From NCBI GenBank assembly GCA_002813895.1, contig CP024912.1:2356001-2420000 (forward strand): a stretch of 64,000 bases of DNA, read 5' to 3'. This DNA comes from Cyanobacterium sp. HL-69 (GTDB lineage: Bacteria > Cyanobacteriota > Cyanobacteriia > Cyanobacteriales > Cyanobacteriaceae). A program made the position numbers and the translations under genes. Shown one piece after another: positions 11,685-19,317 of this stretch (its first letter is position 1; each line of letters begins with the position of its first letter). Under the pieces are notes generated by a model. It made no database searches, was not told where the DNA came from, and saw nothing but the letters and a program-made list of their open reading frames with translations.

Positions 11685-11927
11685 ATTTTATATCGTAATT
11701 TCACTTTAGGGCTACTAAAAGCCTCTCACTTTTAGGCAGAGGTAGTTTACATAGGGTGTAATGAAAAAGTATGCGCATTTAGCAGACTATTTTTTATTGC
11801 ACCATTAAAATATTTTGTATCCATAGAAATAACCTTTTAATATTTTTAATATAAATACATATTTCCCCCTTAATTTTATGTGCAAAAATTCGTTTATCAT
11901 ATAGAAAAGCTGTATAGGTGCAAGTCC

Positions 11928-14390
11928 ATGAGTGAAACTCAAGAATTCCGTCATATATTAGTCATAGAAGATCGCAAAGGAAGAAGAATTATATCCTTAG
12001 AAGACAACAACTACACCCTCGGAAGAGACTCCAATAACCCCATCGTCATCTATGACTATCAAGTGTCTCGCACCCATGCAACTTTAGAAAAAAAAGAAGA
12101 CGCCCAAGGAAGCACCTATCGCATAGTGGACGGAGACTTGCAGGGCAAAAGAAGCACCAACGGGATTTTAGTAAATGGACACGCCACCCTTTCTCATGAA
12201 TTAAAACATGGGGATTCAATTCGTTTTGCCAACGAAGCCAAAGCTAACTATTACATCATCGCCACAGAGTCAGGTATTGACCTTTTTAATCCCGACGACT
12301 TAGGAAATCTAAACTCCAGAAGCACCCTCACCAGCCCCACTACCCAAACAATGATTTCCAAGCAGGAAGAAGCAGAAAATCCTCAAGACCAAGAAGAATT
12401 AATACGTCTTGCATCCTTCCCTGAATTGTCTCCCCATCCTATTATCGAGGTGGACTGGGAGGGTAATATTACTTATCTTAACCCCGCTGCCAGTATCAAA
12501 TTTGAAAATCTTTATGAAGAAAAACTAAGTCATCCTATCCTTGCAGATTTATTAATAGAATCAAATAATCGTCAGGGAAATCTTTTCCTACGGGAAGTAA
12601 AAATAGGGGCAGAAGTATTTGAGCAATATGTTCACTACCTTTCCGAAAAAAAACTCATTAGAAGTTATATTTTCGACTTTACTAAAAGAAAACAAGCCGA
12701 AGCCCAACTAAAAGAAAGTGAGGCTCGTTATAGGGCTATATTACGCCAAACTTCTGAGGGTATCATTCTTGCCTATGCCCACAATAAAAAAATTATTGAA
12801 GTAAATGGAGCCTATGCCAAGATGATAGGCTATGGCACGGAAGAAATGAAAGAGATGACTCTTTATAATCTCATTGCTAGTGACTTACAGTTATTTAACC
12901 AAGATTTGGCCAGAATCGCCGAAAGAAAACAAGATACCCTTGCTCAGTATATCCATCGCTGTAAAGATGGAACTTTACTTAATTTAGAATCTAATATTAG
13001 TGTTATTAGTTATCAAAATAAAGACATTTTTTCTATTGTGGTGAAAAATGTTCCTGAAGCTACCCATACTGCTAACAAGTCTAGTTATTATCATTTTTAT
13101 GATAGTTTGACCAATTTAGCTAATAAAACTTTATTAGAAAAACAACTAGATTTTGCCCTTTTATCAGCTAAACGTTACCAACATTTTCTTGGTCTAATTG
13201 TATTAGAAATAAAAGGATTAGATGGATTTAAAAAAATCAGAGGAGAAGAGGAAACTAATAAATTTTTACAAAATTTTGCTCAAACTTTTGAGTCCTGTTT
13301 ACGTAGCTTTGATTTGGCCGCCAGATGGGATGATAATAGATTTATTGCTTTATTTTCCCGTATTAGGGGACCTAGAGATCCTGCTAAAATTGCGAAAAGG
13401 ATGGCTACGGTTTTTGAGCAGTATATTCAACAGCAAAAGGGCAATACTGACTTAGATTTAAATATTGGTATGGTGGTGTATCCCCTCGATGGGGATAATA
13501 CTGAGCATTTAATCCAAAGTGCTTTGGTATCTTTAGAACAATCTAGTCATGATGAGTCTGGAGTTGTTAGTTGGAGTGGATTTAAGATTAGCCCCAAAAC
13601 AGCTAGTTTACTTAGGTTGGAAAATTTGATTGGTAGCGCTATCCAAGAAAAACAGTTTTATCTGTGTTATCAACCTCAATTAAGTCTTCCCACTAATAGT
13701 TTAACGGGCATGGAGACGTTACTTCGTTGGAATCATCCTGAGTTGGGCAAAATTACCCCTAAACATTTTTTGAGATTGGCGGAGGAAACTGATTTTATGT
13801 TGCCTTTGGGGGTGTGGATTTTACAGACGGCAGTGGCTCAGATGAAACAATGGACAAGTCAGGGTTTCTCTACATTTCCTGTGACAGTTAATATTTCTAG
13901 TCGTCAGTTTAATCAAGATAGTTTTGTGGATTTAGTGGCTACTATTCTTCAGGAAACAGGTTTACCCCCTCAACAGTTGGAGTTAGAAATTACTGAAAAT
14001 TCTTTATTACAAAATCCTAGTTTTGCGGCTCAAAGTTTACAGCAATTGTTAGAGTTAAAAGTACGTTTATGTCTTGATAATTTTGGGGTGGGGGGTTCGT
14101 CTTTAGGTCATTTGCAACAATTTCCTTTTAATACTGTAAAAATTAGCCCAACGGTCATTAGTAAGTTAGAATCTAATCAGGCTTTTAATTCATTTATAAG
14201 GGCGATCGTTTCCTTTAGTGAAGGTTACAATTTGAAAGTTATTGCTGTGGGGGTAGAAAAACCTGCACAACTAGAATTGTTAAAAAGTCTAAACTGTTTG
14301 CAAATTCAAGGTAATTTATTTAGTAGTCCTTTACCCACTCAGGATGCTACTGCATTCTTGGAAAAGGGGAGTTTTTATATTCCTTCTTGA
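11928..14390 (+). CDS. FHA-PAS-PAS-GGDEF-EAL protein with degenerate catalytic motifs (first of three paralogues)
   Basis: I prefer ATG 11928 (820 residues) over the upstream GTG at 11880, because MSETQEFRHILVIED aligns with the start of the two paralogues. Domains in order are FHA (about 8-105, with RTHATLEKKED), a first PAS (about 160-245), a second PAS (about 255-375), GGDEF (about 390-545) and EAL (about 560-815). The diguanylate cyclase signature reads WDDNRF instead of GGDEF. In the EAL domain, EAL is ETL, the DDFG loop is DNFG, and the late AEGVE motif is AVGVE. Both activities are therefore probably lost and the protein may be a c-di-GMP or phosphothreonine receptor. It lies 140 bp before the second paralogue. 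Confidence 0.88.
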   Translation: MSETQEFRHILVIEDRKGRRIISLEDNNYTLGRDSNNPIVIYDYQVSRTHATLEKKEDAQGSTYRIVDGDLQGKRSTNGILVNGHATLSHELKHGDSIRFANEAKANYYIIATESGIDLFNPDDLGNLNSRSTLTSPTTQTMISKQEEAENPQDQEELIRLASFPELSPHPIIEVDWEGNITYLNPAASIKFENLYEEKLSHPILADLLIESNNRQGNLFLREVKIGAEVFEQYVHYLSEKKLIRSYIFDFTKRKQAEAQLKESEARYRAILRQTSEGIILAYAHNKKIIEVNGAYAKMIGYGTEEMKEMTLYNLIASDLQLFNQDLARIAERKQDTLAQYIHRCKDGTLLNLESNISVISYQNKDIFSIVVKNVPEATHTANKSSYYHFYDSLTNLANKTLLEKQLDFALLSAKRYQHFLGLIVLEIKGLDGFKKIRGEEETNKFLQNFAQTFESCLRSFDLAARWDDNRFIALFSRIRGPRDPAKIAKRMATVFEQYIQQQKGNTDLDLNIGMVVYPLDGDNTEHLIQSALVSLEQSSHDESGVVSWSGFKISPKTASLLRLENLIGSAIQEKQFYLCYQPQLSLPTNSLTGMETLLRWNHPELGKITPKHFLRLAEETDFMLPLGVWILQTAVAQMKQWTSQGFSTFPVTVNISSRQFNQDSFVDLVATILQETGLPPQQLELEITENSLLQNPSFAAQSLQQLLELKVRLCLDNFGVGGSSLGHLQQFPFNTVKISPTVISKLESNQAFNSFIRAIVSFSEGYNLKVIAVGVEKPAQLELLKSLNCLQIQGNLFSSPLPTQDATAFLEKGSFYIPS

Positions 14391-14530
14391 GTATTTGAAG
14401 ATGTGTTTACACTTCATTAATAAAATACTAGCCGTTAAGGTTATTCTTCAGTTATGAGAGTAGCTTTATAATTTTGATAACTATAAAATAATAGTCTTTT
14501 ATGATTAAATAAAAATACTTTTTATTAACT

Positions 14531-17155
14531 ATGAATAGCGATTACACGGCCACAGTCTTTAATAGTCAATTGCGAAATTTACTCCATGTTTTGGTGCTGA
14601 AGGATAAAACTTCTCGTCATACCATTCTTTTAGAAGATCAAAGATATACTTTAGGCAGAGATCCCCGTAATAATATTCCTATCAAATCAAAAAAAGTATC
14701 TCGTATTCATGGGACTATACTTCGTAGGGAAGATGCTCAACACAAAACTTTTTCCTATTGGCTGTTAGATGGTGATTTGATGGGTAATCGTAGTACCAAT
14801 GGGATATTTATTAATGATAAAAGATGTTTGGTTCAAGAATTAAAACATGGTGATGTTATTACATTGGGCATGGAAGTGGAAGGAGAATATCATATTCTTT
14901 CTGATGTCAACCAATTAGAAAGTTTGAGAGAGGAAGATTTTGATTCTCATCAAGGTGGGGGGGTTGCCAATACTAAAAGGTCAGATGAAAATAAAATTCA
15001 TAATTCCATAGATTATGATCGGGAGAATACTCCGACAATCATTAGTAGCTCTGATACCTTGTTTATATCGGAACCCACCGTAGAGTCTTTTGAGGAGAAT
15101 AGCAGTAATGCTAGTTCTGCGGATGCCTCTGAGGTTCAGTCTGATGAGTTAAGTCGCTTAGCTTCCTTTCCAGAATGGAGTCCTAATCCTATTATAGAGA
15201 TTGATTGGTCTGGAAGGGTAACTTATTTAAATCCTTCAGCGACAACTAAGTTCCCTACTCTGAGGTTAAATGAAACTAATTCGAGTCATCCTGTTTTAGA
15301 GGGTTTAGTTCAGGGTATCAAGAAGAATAGTGCTAGTTCTAATTTATTTGTTCGGGAAATAACCATTAAGAATCAGGTTTTTGAACAATATATTCATTAC
15401 CTATCGGAACAGAAGTTAGTTAGATGTTATATTTTTGATTTTACGGGGAGAAGAATTACTGCAACTCAGGTTAATGAGAGTGAGCAAAGATATAAAGCTG
15501 TTTTAAATCAGATTCAAGAGGGAATTTTTCTGGTGGATGCTGGAAGTAAAAAAGTTTTGGAAGCTAACAGTGCGTTGGCTAATCTCTTGGGTTATGGTTT
15601 GGATGATTTGCATTGTTTGAGTTTGAATGATGTATTATTTTTGAGTCCTGGAGAAGTGGAACAGAAAATAGATTTTTGGTTAAATAATCCTAATTCTGGC
15701 TCTGAAACTTTAAGTTATCGTCGTAAAAATGGTTTTTTATTGGAGTTGGAGTCTAGTCATTCTACTATTAGTTATGGGGATCAGAAAATTGTTTCTTTTA
15801 CGGTACATCCTGTTAGTCAAAGTTTAGGGACTGAGACGATAATTCAGGAACAGGGTTTGTTTGATTTGGAAACAAATTTACCTAATAGTCAGTTATTTTT
15901 GGAACAGTTAAACACTGCGATCGCCAATAGTTATCGTTTAGAACAACTGTTATGTGTAATTTTCGTAGAGCTAGAATTACCGAAAAACTTAAAAGAAAAA
16001 ATAAATAATAAAATTCAATTAACCTTATTAGAAGGCTTTTCCAAAAGATTAAGATCCTCTTTGCGCGGCGGTGATACCGTTGCTAGGTGGCAAGGAAACC
16101 AATTTGTGTGTTTATTACCTCAAGTCAGAAGTATTCGAGACATTGGCAAAGTATGTCACCGAATTTTAGAAACCTTAAAACCACCTTTTTTCTTAGAACA
16201 TCAAAAAATCCATATCAAAACCAGTATGGGCATAGCGGTTTATGATGAGGAAAATAATACGACAGAAACAATTTTGGCAAATGCCCAAAAAGCCTTAAAA
16301 AAAAGCCAAGAATTGGGCAGTAATAACTATAAATTTATCCAATCCAACATTCAAGCAGAAATAGAAAGACTTTTAAAGCTAGAAAAACTTTTAAACTCTG
16401 CCCTCGAAAAAAAGGAATTATCCCTCCACTACCAGCCCCGCATCAGAGTAGAAAATAAACAAATAACAGGGGTAGAAGCCTTTTTGCGGTGGAATCACCC
16501 CGAATTGGGGTGTATGTACCCCGGGCAATTTTTACCCTTAGCCGAAGAGACAGGATTAATTATGGACATAGGAGAATGGGTATTGGAAACCGCCTGTTTT
16601 CAACATAAAATCTGGTTACAAAATAATGTGATTAAACAACCCATTAGCATTAACATTTCTGGTTATCAATTCCAACAACCTAACTTTACAAATGTCATTG
16701 CCAATATCTTAGAACAAACAGACTTACCTCCACATTTTTTAGAACTAGAAATCACCGAAGAAACCATTGCCCAAGAGCTAGATTTGGCAGAAAAAACGAT
16801 CTCAGAATTAAAGCAAATGGGAGTAAAAATATGCTTAGATGATTTTGGTAAAGGAATGTCTGCTTTAGGCTATCTAAAGAAATTTCAAATTGATACCATC
16901 AAAATTGATAAAGATATTGTCCAAAACCTAGAGAATAATTCTCAAGACTTGGCCATTGTATCAGCTATAATTGGGGTAGGAAAAAACTTTAATATAGCTG
17001 TAGTGGCTGAAGGAATAGAATCCAAAGAACAACTAGCTCTTTTATTAGAATTAGGATGTGAGGAGATACAGGGTAATTTGTTGACAGAACCATTAAAAAT
17101 GGGTGATACAACCAATTTTCTTGCCAATCCAACCCAGAGTCTCACTTTATCATAA
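14531..17155 (+). CDS. FHA-PAS-PAS-GGDEF-EAL protein, GGDEF degenerate, EAL largely intact (second paralogue)
   Basis: The 874-residue protein has the same architecture: FHA (about 20-120, with RIHGTI), an acidic linker (about 130-205), PAS (about 210-300), PAS (about 315-425), GGDEF (about 435-590) and EAL (about 605-860). The cyclase signature is WQGNQF, so cyclase activity is unlikely. The EAL domain keeps most metal and substrate residues (VEAFLRW, SINIS, LELEITEE, LDDFG, AEGIES), with only Phe in place of Leu in EAL. A phosphodiesterase that hydrolyses c-di-GMP is therefore plausible. It is separated from the third paralogue by 35 bp, so the two are probably cotranscribed. Confidence 0.88.
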   Translation: MNSDYTATVFNSQLRNLLHVLVLKDKTSRHTILLEDQRYTLGRDPRNNIPIKSKKVSRIHGTILRREDAQHKTFSYWLLDGDLMGNRSTNGIFINDKRCLVQELKHGDVITLGMEVEGEYHILSDVNQLESLREEDFDSHQGGGVANTKRSDENKIHNSIDYDRENTPTIISSSDTLFISEPTVESFEENSSNASSADASEVQSDELSRLASFPEWSPNPIIEIDWSGRVTYLNPSATTKFPTLRLNETNSSHPVLEGLVQGIKKNSASSNLFVREITIKNQVFEQYIHYLSEQKLVRCYIFDFTGRRITATQVNESEQRYKAVLNQIQEGIFLVDAGSKKVLEANSALANLLGYGLDDLHCLSLNDVLFLSPGEVEQKIDFWLNNPNSGSETLSYRRKNGFLLELESSHSTISYGDQKIVSFTVHPVSQSLGTETIIQEQGLFDLETNLPNSQLFLEQLNTAIANSYRLEQLLCVIFVELELPKNLKEKINNKIQLTLLEGFSKRLRSSLRGGDTVARWQGNQFVCLLPQVRSIRDIGKVCHRILETLKPPFFLEHQKIHIKTSMGIAVYDEENNTTETILANAQKALKKSQELGSNNYKFIQSNIQAEIERLLKLEKLLNSALEKKELSLHYQPRIRVENKQITGVEAFLRWNHPELGCMYPGQFLPLAEETGLIMDIGEWVLETACFQHKIWLQNNVIKQPISINISGYQFQQPNFTNVIANILEQTDLPPHFLELEITEETIAQELDLAEKTISELKQMGVKICLDDFGKGMSALGYLKKFQIDTIKIDKDIVQNLENNSQDLAIVSAIIGVGKNFNIAVVAEGIESKEQLALLLELGCEEIQGNLLTEPLKMGDTTNFLANPTQSLTLS

Positions 17156-17190
17156 ATTATTCATCATTTATCTATCATATTCCCCACTAA

Positions 17191-19317
17191 ATGAGTAATC
17201 ATAAGACCAAATTAAATCACATTCTGGTGGTAGAAGAACTCAATAATCAGAGATTCTTTACCCTTGAATCCGAGGTCTATTCTATTGGGAGACATTCAAG
17301 TAGTGATATAAAACTAAACTCGGCCCCAGTATCTCGACATCACGGTACCATTATCAGAGATCACTTGGGGGATAATGAATATGCTTACACCCTCATTGAT
17401 GGCGATTTTAAAGGCCATAGAAGTCAAAATGGTATCTTAGTCAATGGCAAAAAAATTATTCGTCGTCGTCTTCAAGATGGAGATCAAATTTTATTTGGTG
17501 GAGAGGATATTAAAGGGATATATTATTTGGAGTCTGAGGCGCAAGTTAATCGCAATGTAGAAAAAAATGATAATTGGCGCATTGAAAAAAATCGCACTAA
17601 TTCGGCGAGGGAGGAGTTACAAAATACTCTGATTCTGTCGGAACAAAATTTATCGGGTAATTTACAAAGTGAGGAGATTAAAAGGTTAGCTTCTTTTCCT
17701 GAGTTATCTCCCCATCCCATTATAGAAATAGACTTTCAGGGTAAGATTACTTATATGAATCCTTCTGCTAAGTTATGTTTTCCTGACTTATCAGATGATG
17801 ATGAGGATAATGGGAAGCATCCTTTAATGATGAATATTAATATTCCTCAAGATAAAACCCATAGTCAATTAGAACAAAGGGAAGTTAGTTCTAACGATCG
17901 CCACTTTGAACAATATATTCATTATCTCTCAAAATACAACGTTATTAGAAGTTATATTTTTGATATTACCGAGCGCAAAATATCAGAAGCGAAGTTACAA
18001 TATCAAGCCTTCCATGATTCTTTGACGGGCATTGGCAATCGAGATTATTTCCATTGGCAACTAAATAATCGTCTCAGGGAAATGAAGGAAAAGGGAGATG
18101 ATTTTGCAATTTTATTTATTGATATAGATAGATTTAAAAATATAAATGATACTCTCAATCATTCCACGGGGGATAAATTATTAGAAAGTTTTTCTTTTCG
18201 GATTCTCTCTTGTCTTTCAACAGACTGTATTTTTTCTCGATGGGGAGGAGATGAGTTTATTTTGGGGTTACCCCTAGGAAGTCAAGAAAAAAATCACACT
18301 GGTTTGATTAACGATACCATTAAGGTGATTATGGATAGTCTCAAAAATCCCTTTTTGATTGAGAACTACACCATTTATGTTACCTGTAGTATTGGGATTG
18401 CTCTTTATCCTCAAGATGGAGATAATCAAGAGCAACTGATCAAAAATGCCGATATTGCCCTTTCTCGGGCAAAACAAATGGGTAAAAATAATTCCCAATT
18501 TTACACTACTCGCCTGAGTGAAGAGCAAATGCTCATGTTTGAGTTGGAAACCAGTCTTTATGATGCGATCGCCCATAACCAACTATACTTAAACTATCAA
18601 CCAAAATTAAACCTCGCCACCAACAAAATTGATAGTGCAGAAGCCCTTGTAAGATGGAAACATCCCACCCTTGGCATTATCTCCCCTGGCAAATTTATTC
18701 CCCTAGCAGAAGAAACAGGGCTAATTATTCCCATCGGGGAATGGGTATTAAAAACCGCTTGTCTTCAGGCTAAAAAATGGATTGAATTAGGTTATGGACT
18801 AGACACCATCGCCGTAAATATTTCCGTGAAGCAATTTCGGCAAGAAAACTTTGTCGAAGTCGTCAAAGATGTCTTGGAAGATGTCAACCTCGAAGCAAAA
18901 TATTTAGAATTAGAAGTAACCGAAAGTATTTTAATGCAAGATAGGGGCAAAACCGCTTTAATTATTAACGAATTGTCCGAGCTGGGTGTAAAATTTTCCC
19001 TAGATGACTTTGGTACTGGTTATTCATCTTTAAGTTATCTGAAAAAATTTCCTTTTCATACCATTAAAATTGACCAATCTTTCATTCGAGATTTGACAGT
19101 TAATCAACAAGATAGAGCCTTAATTGATGCAGTAATTACCCTCGGAAAAGGCTATAAAATGCAAGTAGTAGCCGAGGGAGTAGAAACAGAAGTACAACTC
19201 AATATTTTAAGAGAATTTAACTGCGATATTATTCAAGGAAGATGGCTTAGTATGCCTATTTCAGCCCCTGAATTTGAAAAATTCTTACAAAACTTTATCC
19301 ATGCCATGACAAAATAA
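17191..19317 (+). CDS. FHA-PAS-GGDEF-EAL protein with intact catalytic motifs (third paralogue)
   Basis: The 708-residue protein has FHA (about 8-105, with SRHHGTI), one PAS (about 165-250), GGDEF (about 265-430) and EAL (about 440-700). It lacks the second PAS of its two upstream paralogues. The cyclase domain has DSLTGIGNRDYF and the intact signature SRWGGDEFI. The phosphodiesterase domain has intact EALVRW, VNISVKQF, LELEVTE, LDDFGTGYSSL and AEGVET. It should be able to make or break the second messenger c-di-GMP. FHA domains usually bind phosphothreonine, which suggests a link to Ser/Thr kinase signalling. Confidence 0.92.
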   Translation: MSNHKTKLNHILVVEELNNQRFFTLESEVYSIGRHSSSDIKLNSAPVSRHHGTIIRDHLGDNEYAYTLIDGDFKGHRSQNGILVNGKKIIRRRLQDGDQILFGGEDIKGIYYLESEAQVNRNVEKNDNWRIEKNRTNSAREELQNTLILSEQNLSGNLQSEEIKRLASFPELSPHPIIEIDFQGKITYMNPSAKLCFPDLSDDDEDNGKHPLMMNINIPQDKTHSQLEQREVSSNDRHFEQYIHYLSKYNVIRSYIFDITERKISEAKLQYQAFHDSLTGIGNRDYFHWQLNNRLREMKEKGDDFAILFIDIDRFKNINDTLNHSTGDKLLESFSFRILSCLSTDCIFSRWGGDEFILGLPLGSQEKNHTGLINDTIKVIMDSLKNPFLIENYTIYVTCSIGIALYPQDGDNQEQLIKNADIALSRAKQMGKNNSQFYTTRLSEEQMLMFELETSLYDAIAHNQLYLNYQPKLNLATNKIDSAEALVRWKHPTLGIISPGKFIPLAEETGLIIPIGEWVLKTACLQAKKWIELGYGLDTIAVNISVKQFRQENFVEVVKDVLEDVNLEAKYLELEVTESILMQDRGKTALIINELSELGVKFSLDDFGTGYSSLSYLKKFPFHTIKIDQSFIRDLTVNQQDRALIDAVITLGKGYKMQVVAEGVETEVQLNILREFNCDIIQGRWLSMPISAPEFEKFLQNFIHAMTK

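Follow-up and report, generated by a model that had tools for sequence, protein, structure and literature searches.

Gene set and domain organization

The window, a 64,000-nucleotide stretch of the Cyanobacterium sp. HL-69 genome (contig CP024912.1, positions 2,356,001 to 2,420,000), contains three neighboring open reading frames on the same strand, here called P1, P2 and P3, which encode related c-di-GMP signaling paralogues (Table 1). The longest reading frame of P1 runs from a GTG at 11880, but most orthologues share the start at ATG 11928. In all three proteins, FHA, GGDEF and EAL domains were matched by Pfam, all well above the curated cut-offs. The original prediction of three paralogues with one architecture and an FHA domain therefore holds for these domains, but not for the PAS region, since two PAS domains are present in P1 and P2 and only one in P3, which lacks PAS2. 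The motifs quoted in that prediction (WDDNRF, DNFG and AVGVE for P1, WQGNQF for P2, and GGDEF, EAL and DDFG for P3) are present letter for letter.

PAS1 is a diverged domain. In the P1 of the window it occupies 12417-12713 and scores below the Pfam PAS cut-offs, and among 53 family members 47 gave weak Pfam PAS matches (E-values up to 1, the best being 3e-5). An AF2 model of PAS1 showed a PAS-like order of strands and helices with a pLDDT of 80-90 across most of its length; a full-length AF2 model of P1 (12 sequences) was poor in its N-terminal part and was left out of use. The set thus carries FHA, diverged PAS, GGDEF and EAL domains in an order like that of CdgSH. Promoter and terminator scans of the triplet gave no excess above shuffled sequence. 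Genome-wide (3.3 Mb, 99.99% complete), 15 GGDEF, 8 EAL and 14 FHA matches and a single PilZ match were found, as well as about 20 matches over the cut-off to Hanks-type Ser/Thr kinases.

Table 1. Coordinates of the three genes and of their diagnostic residues in the window.
Feature	Position	Strand	Basis
P1, FHA-PAS1-PAS2-degenerate GGDEF-degenerate EAL	11928..14390	+	820 aa; ORF, Pfam, conserved ATG, clade of 14 rows
P1 linker Thr141, candidate phosphothreonine	12348..12350	+	Family alignment, shuffle test, linker pLDDT 25-43
P1 I-site R459-x-x-D462 (RSFD), kept	13302..13313	+	Arg and Asp in 13/13 aligned orthologues
P1 degenerate A-site WDDNRF	13326..13343	+	W(D/N)(D/E/N)(N/D/T)xF in all orthologues
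P1 Asn718, replacing second metal Asp of DDFG (RocR D296 position)	14079..14081	+	All P1 orthologues covering the site have N, G or S
P1 Val774, replacing metal Glu of AEGVE (RocR E352 position)	14247..14249	+	V in all P1 orthologues covering the site
P2, FHA-PAS1-PAS2-degenerate GGDEF-intact EAL	14531..17155	+	874 aa; ORF, Pfam, motifs, clade of 14 rows
P2 linker Thr176, candidate phosphothreonine	15056..15058	+	One of five invariant residues in the 72-residue linker
P2 I-site R512-G-G-D515 (RGGD), kept	16064..16075	+	Arg and Asp in 13/13 aligned orthologues
P2 degenerate A-site WQGNQF	16088..16105	+	W(Q/E/D)xxxF throughout the orthologues
P2 EAL domain, catalytic residues intact	16391..17092	+	Pfam, motif alignment
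P3, FHA-PAS1-GGDEF-EAL, two intact active sites	17191..19317	+	708 aa; ORF, Pfam, motifs, clade of 14 rows
P3 linker Thr146, candidate phosphothreonine	17626..17628	+	Invariant in 11/11 orthologues
P3 intact GGDEF A-site	18244..18258	+	GGDEF in 11/11 orthologues
P3 EAL domain, catalytic residues intact	18553..19257	+	Pfam, motif alignment

Catalytic motifs and inhibitory sites are divided among the three proteins

The catalytic motifs read WDDNRF, LDNFG and AVGVE in P1, WQGNQF, DDFG and AEGIE in P2, and RWGGDEF, EAL, DDFG and AEGVE in P3, and the EAL triplet itself is worded ETL, EAF and EAL, respectively. All P1 rows having a GGDEF domain carry W(D/N)xxxF in place of GGDEF. The EAL domains were compared with RocR, whose metal ligands are E175, N233, E265, D295, D296 and E352 and whose substrate is bound by Q161 and R179 (PMC7911125). 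All six ligands are present in P2, P3 and their orthologues. P1 has lost two of them, the equivalents of D296 and E352, and thus lacks the full ligand set of an active phosphodiesterase; the other four and the substrate-binding Gln and Arg are kept (residues retained in the domain are Gln582, Glu596, Arg600, Asn655, Glu687, Asp717, Lys738 and Gln794). The residues required of a bifunctional enzyme are therefore found in both domains of P3, in the EAL domain only of P2 and in neither domain of P1. Degenerate GGDEF domains are present in over 40% of GGDEF-EAL proteins generally (PMC3974145).

The RxxD I-site shows the reverse of the A-site pattern, being kept in P1 and P2 and having lost its Arg in P3. 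Both Arg and Asp are present in every P1 row still having a GGDEF domain, and the equivalent position of P3, upstream of the A-site, reads LSTD, with Arg missing in 11 of 11 orthologues. Loss of the A-site with retention of RxxD across orthologues, the signature of an I-site type c-di-GMP receptor, is thus seen in P1 and P2. They resemble in this respect PopA, PelD and CdgA, I-site receptors with degenerate GGDEF domains for which c-di-GMP binding was shown, as cited in PMC3974145; for P1 and P2, such binding is predicted from the residues. Because none of the P3 orthologues has the Arg, the I-site is not structurally obligatory, and because degenerate GGDEF domains in other lineages have sometimes lost it too (L049, L050, L059), its presence in P1 and P2 cannot be taken for granted. 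A kept I-site is, in itself, no proof of c-di-GMP binding. In P1 its surroundings stand out as a conserved core while the domain elsewhere diverges: 8 of the 12 residues around the site are invariant, versus 31 of the 160 in the whole domain (p=0.0002 by a hypergeometric test, a descriptive value, since the columns were picked after the pattern was seen). In P2, conservation of the corresponding segment does not exceed that of the remaining GGDEF domain (p=0.25).

A nearly invariant threonine follows the FHA domain

The phosphothreonine-pocket residues of the FHA domain (R33, S47, R48, H50, S76 and N78) are each present in 84-86 of 86 proteins, so that the Arg, Ser, His/Arg and Asn characteristic of the pocket are conserved. 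The closest solved structure is the FHA domain of Slr1951 from Synechocystis, and OdhI and GarA are also among the Foldseek matches of the modeled domain. These binding residues, kept throughout, and the roughly 20 Ser/Thr kinase genes in the genome support the possible phosphothreonine input of the original prediction.

The linker between FHA and PAS1 is variable and harbors a nearly invariant Thr, followed by L/M/I and then I/V/F, in 80 of 86 family proteins, a count that spans related sequences and not 80 independent events. When the real linkers were realigned, the best column held Thr in 78 of 85, and in eight trials with shuffled linkers the best column for any residue reached 22-30 of 85; the short motif was observed in 64 linkers versus 3.9 expected. 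The Thr persists where the remaining linker is nearly unalignable, as in P2, where the linker has 40% identity and 5 of 72 positions are invariant. It is also found in most single-copy relatives and in many of the PAS-less third members of a second kind of triplet described below. The linker was modeled by AF2 with very low confidence (pLDDT 25-43), as expected of disorder.

OdhI and GarA are regulators of metabolic enzymes that carry a phosphorylatable Thr in a flexible N-terminal region. They are comparable to the present proteins in combining an FHA domain with a Thr in a flexible tail and differ in the N-terminal location of that Thr and in having no c-di-GMP domains. Another parallel is offered by DgcB of Bdellovibrio, in which FHA binds the phosphothreonine of its own N-terminal tail (LEKpTSIVASD, hydrophobic at +2 and +3) and switches the GGDEF domain (PMC6733907). 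As in DgcB, the window proteins couple an FHA domain to a c-di-GMP enzyme and hold, in a flexible stretch beside the FHA domain, a conserved Thr with hydrophobic residues after it. In DgcB, however, the Thr lies N-terminal to FHA, EAL and PAS domains are absent, the I-site is present, and phosphothreonine binding was shown, whereas the window Thr is a candidate. It could instead have a structural role or serve to bind a partner.

Small proteins with FHA as their sole domain (139-191 aa) were also noticed in many cyanobacterial genomes, in this family and in others (for example L094 at G000:C1:835000-837000 and L120-L139). They have an OdhI/GarA-like layout with the Thr behind the FHA domain, in an acidic tail that in nearly all of those read ends D-(I/V)-T-L-I.

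A proposed division of labor in c-di-GMP turnover

The motif pattern suggests a divided-labor c-di-GMP module, with a receptor-like P1, a phosphodiesterase P2 and an uninhibited bifunctional P3 under phosphothreonine-FHA gating, a reading to which we give an even chance of being correct. In such a module, an old tandem set of c-di-GMP paralogues would have split the work. P3 could probably catalyze both synthesis and breakdown of c-di-GMP and, having lost the I-site Arg, would escape shut-off by its product. P2 would act as a phosphodiesterase whose dead GGDEF domain senses c-di-GMP through the I-site. P1, presumed dead in both domains, would serve as a c-di-GMP receptor or regulator, a role suggested by its kept I-site and EAL substrate-binding Gln and Arg. 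A Hanks-type kinase would phosphorylate the linker Thr, and an FHA domain of the same or a sister protein would then bind it and switch activity or assembly. We infer the enzymatic activities, c-di-GMP binding, phosphorylation and contacts among the three proteins from sequence. By analogy with CdgSH, P3 may be a net phosphodiesterase and not "the active enzyme" of the set. It is also conceivable, but improbable in our estimation, that sister FHA domains bind phosphorylated linker Thr residues to give a kinase-built P1/P2/P3 complex, in which P1 would sense c-di-GMP and balance synthesis by P3 against breakdown by P2.

Ser/Thr phosphorylation and c-di-GMP signaling have mostly been studied separately. 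A single conserved Thr beside a phosphothreonine-reading domain provides a one-residue test of the link between the two. The fixed A-site/I-site split over three sisters is, moreover, a natural experiment in how a bifunctional enzyme becomes a receptor, a degrader and an uninhibited maker.

Orthologous arrays and their remodeling

The tandem P1-P2-P3 array was found in the same order in 11 genomes of the genus and family of the window (G000, G001, G002, G004, G006, G008, G009, G011, G012, G013 and G014); the contig of G001 stops inside P3, and two TGA codons interrupt P3 in the draft genome G012. In a tree of 103 GGDEF-EAL rows, P1, P2 and P3 formed separate clades of 14 rows each (SH-aLRT 100; the tree was from a quick search, with SH-aLRT and not bootstrap support). 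Each protein thus has its own clade, with motif losses fixed across orthologues, and not the single genes with random motif loss that would have argued against a coordinated system. A Prochloraceae bin carries a same-order triplet whose members join or neighbor the P1, P2 and P3 clades (with a support of 98 for P2). Another kind of triplet, with proteins of about 858, 699 and 602 aa and nearly intact motifs, was identified in Crocosphaera, Cyanothece, Aphanothece and Chroococcus. Tandem FHA-GGDEF-EAL arrays therefore recur in other unicellular cyanobacteria, contrary to the initial impression of a non-standard arrangement, and the idea that the triplet is a peculiarity of one strain was rejected. 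In this second kind (L077-L091, L109-L113), the first member carries GSDEF; a motif-poor version of it occurs in genus g12 and its family.

Several genomes depart from the tandem arrangement. G007 and G010 retain all three genes at three separate places. In G003, an in-frame fusion links P1 residues 1-672 with P3 from residue 138 onward in a protein of 1,240 aa, and P2 is gone; this fusion (L033:4046-7768) also lacks the last part of the P1 EAL domain, the P3 FHA domain and the P3 linker Thr. G005 (L056:1512-6260) has a reduced array, in which P1 lacks PAS2 and GGDEF. The same P1 retains its degenerate EAL domain (AVGVEK), P2 is without PAS domains, and P3 appears to be in pieces. Because the sets of G007/G010, G003, G012 and G005 are dispersed, P2-less, interrupted or cut down, no lineage-independent need for all three genes is apparent. 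With the genes dispersed in G007 and G010, fused in G003 and remodeled in G005, adjacency is dispensable. The relay originally envisaged, like any physical coupling, is not supported as stated.

These departures bear on the main alternative, that the paralogues have no joint function, each responding to its own FHA and PAS signals, and that their clustering is a relic of tandem duplication. The retention of dispersed genes in G007 and G010, the P2-less fusion in G003 and the different make-up of arrays in other families all agree with it. Against it, ten other family genomes have the same three types together and in the same order, also where the flanks differ, and the order is repeated in the Prochloraceae bin. 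The plsY-like and antiporter-like genes that flank the triplet in the window are found in G003 and G004, and in nine other genomes no neighbor inside the examined stretch matches those of the window. We regard independent action of the paralogues as possible but rather less probable than the divided-labor module.

Domain conservation and selection

Per-domain dN/dS values were computed by NG86 between the window and its nearest relative, L034, where both values were computable. They were 0.030 (FHA), 0.016 (PAS1), 0.022 (PAS2), 0.114 (GGDEF) and 0.098 (EAL) for P1; 0.050, 0.056, 0.169, 0.077 and 0.050 for the same domains of P2; and 0.058 (FHA), 0.090 (PAS1), 0.064 (GGDEF) and 0.050 (EAL) for P3. 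With dS close to or exceeding 1 for most segments, the ratios are rough. The range of 0.016-0.17 indicates purifying selection and argues against decay. The FHA and PAS1 domains of P1 are the best-conserved stretch of the whole set, with 81% and 87% mean pairwise identity, and among the folded domains of P1 conservation is lowest in GGDEF (55%).

This contrast within P1 would also suit allostery that does not involve c-di-GMP reception, in which the degenerate GGDEF domains act as dimerization or GTP-binding regulators of the EAL domains, with P1 as a dominant-negative partner or scaffold for P2 and P3. A precedent is CdpA of Vibrio cholerae, whose phosphodiesterase activity needs its degenerate GGDEF domain and not c-di-GMP (PMC3974145). 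The I-site Arg and Asp, invariant in P1 and P2 with the Arg lost in P3, speak against this explanation, and we consider it unlikely. Simple relaxation, by which the degenerate domains would be decaying leftovers, draws on the low conservation of the P1 GGDEF domain and its loss from P1 in G005 but is very improbable, given that dN/dS is about 0.1 for both the GGDEF and the EAL domain of P1 and that the same substitutions (E-to-V; W-acid-x-x-x-F) are fixed across the clade.

Relation to known systems

The domain combination of the set is already known, and degenerate GGDEF domains are ordinary. CdgSH of Anabaena PCC 7120 shares the FHA-PAS-...-GGDEF-EAL architecture and is a bifunctional, phosphodiesterase-dominant enzyme with both sites intact and a working RxxD feedback site (PMC8682488). 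It differs in being encoded by a single gene, in its extra GAF domain and in having both sites active, whereas the window has three copies among which the motifs are divided and the I-site is lost in the one predicted to be active. A Microcystis aeruginosa FHA-GGDEF-EAL hybrid with the same domain combination was reported in 23 of 24 genomes (PMC7063779), as one protein per genome and not three as here. In family f33 of the same order, single-copy FHA-PAS1-GGDEF-EAL proteins of 868-891 aa, likened to CdgSH by description only, have intact EAL and RxxD motifs and mostly the linker Thr, and GGDEF is intact in all but one of five. In a literature search covering few subscription journals, we found no paper on tandem arrays, a fixed A-site/I-site split or the linker Thr, nor one on the Synechocystis genes slr1102-slr1104.

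Of 291 genomes of the phylum, 46 have relatives according to a profile search with PAS1, and many of these relatives are single-copy. Finally, Gloeocapsa-type sisters of P1 (L063:4992-7487, L076:6597-9095) have a far more degenerate EAL domain (LEASLYW, DNFG, AQNVTT), which suggests a receptor-like state taken further.
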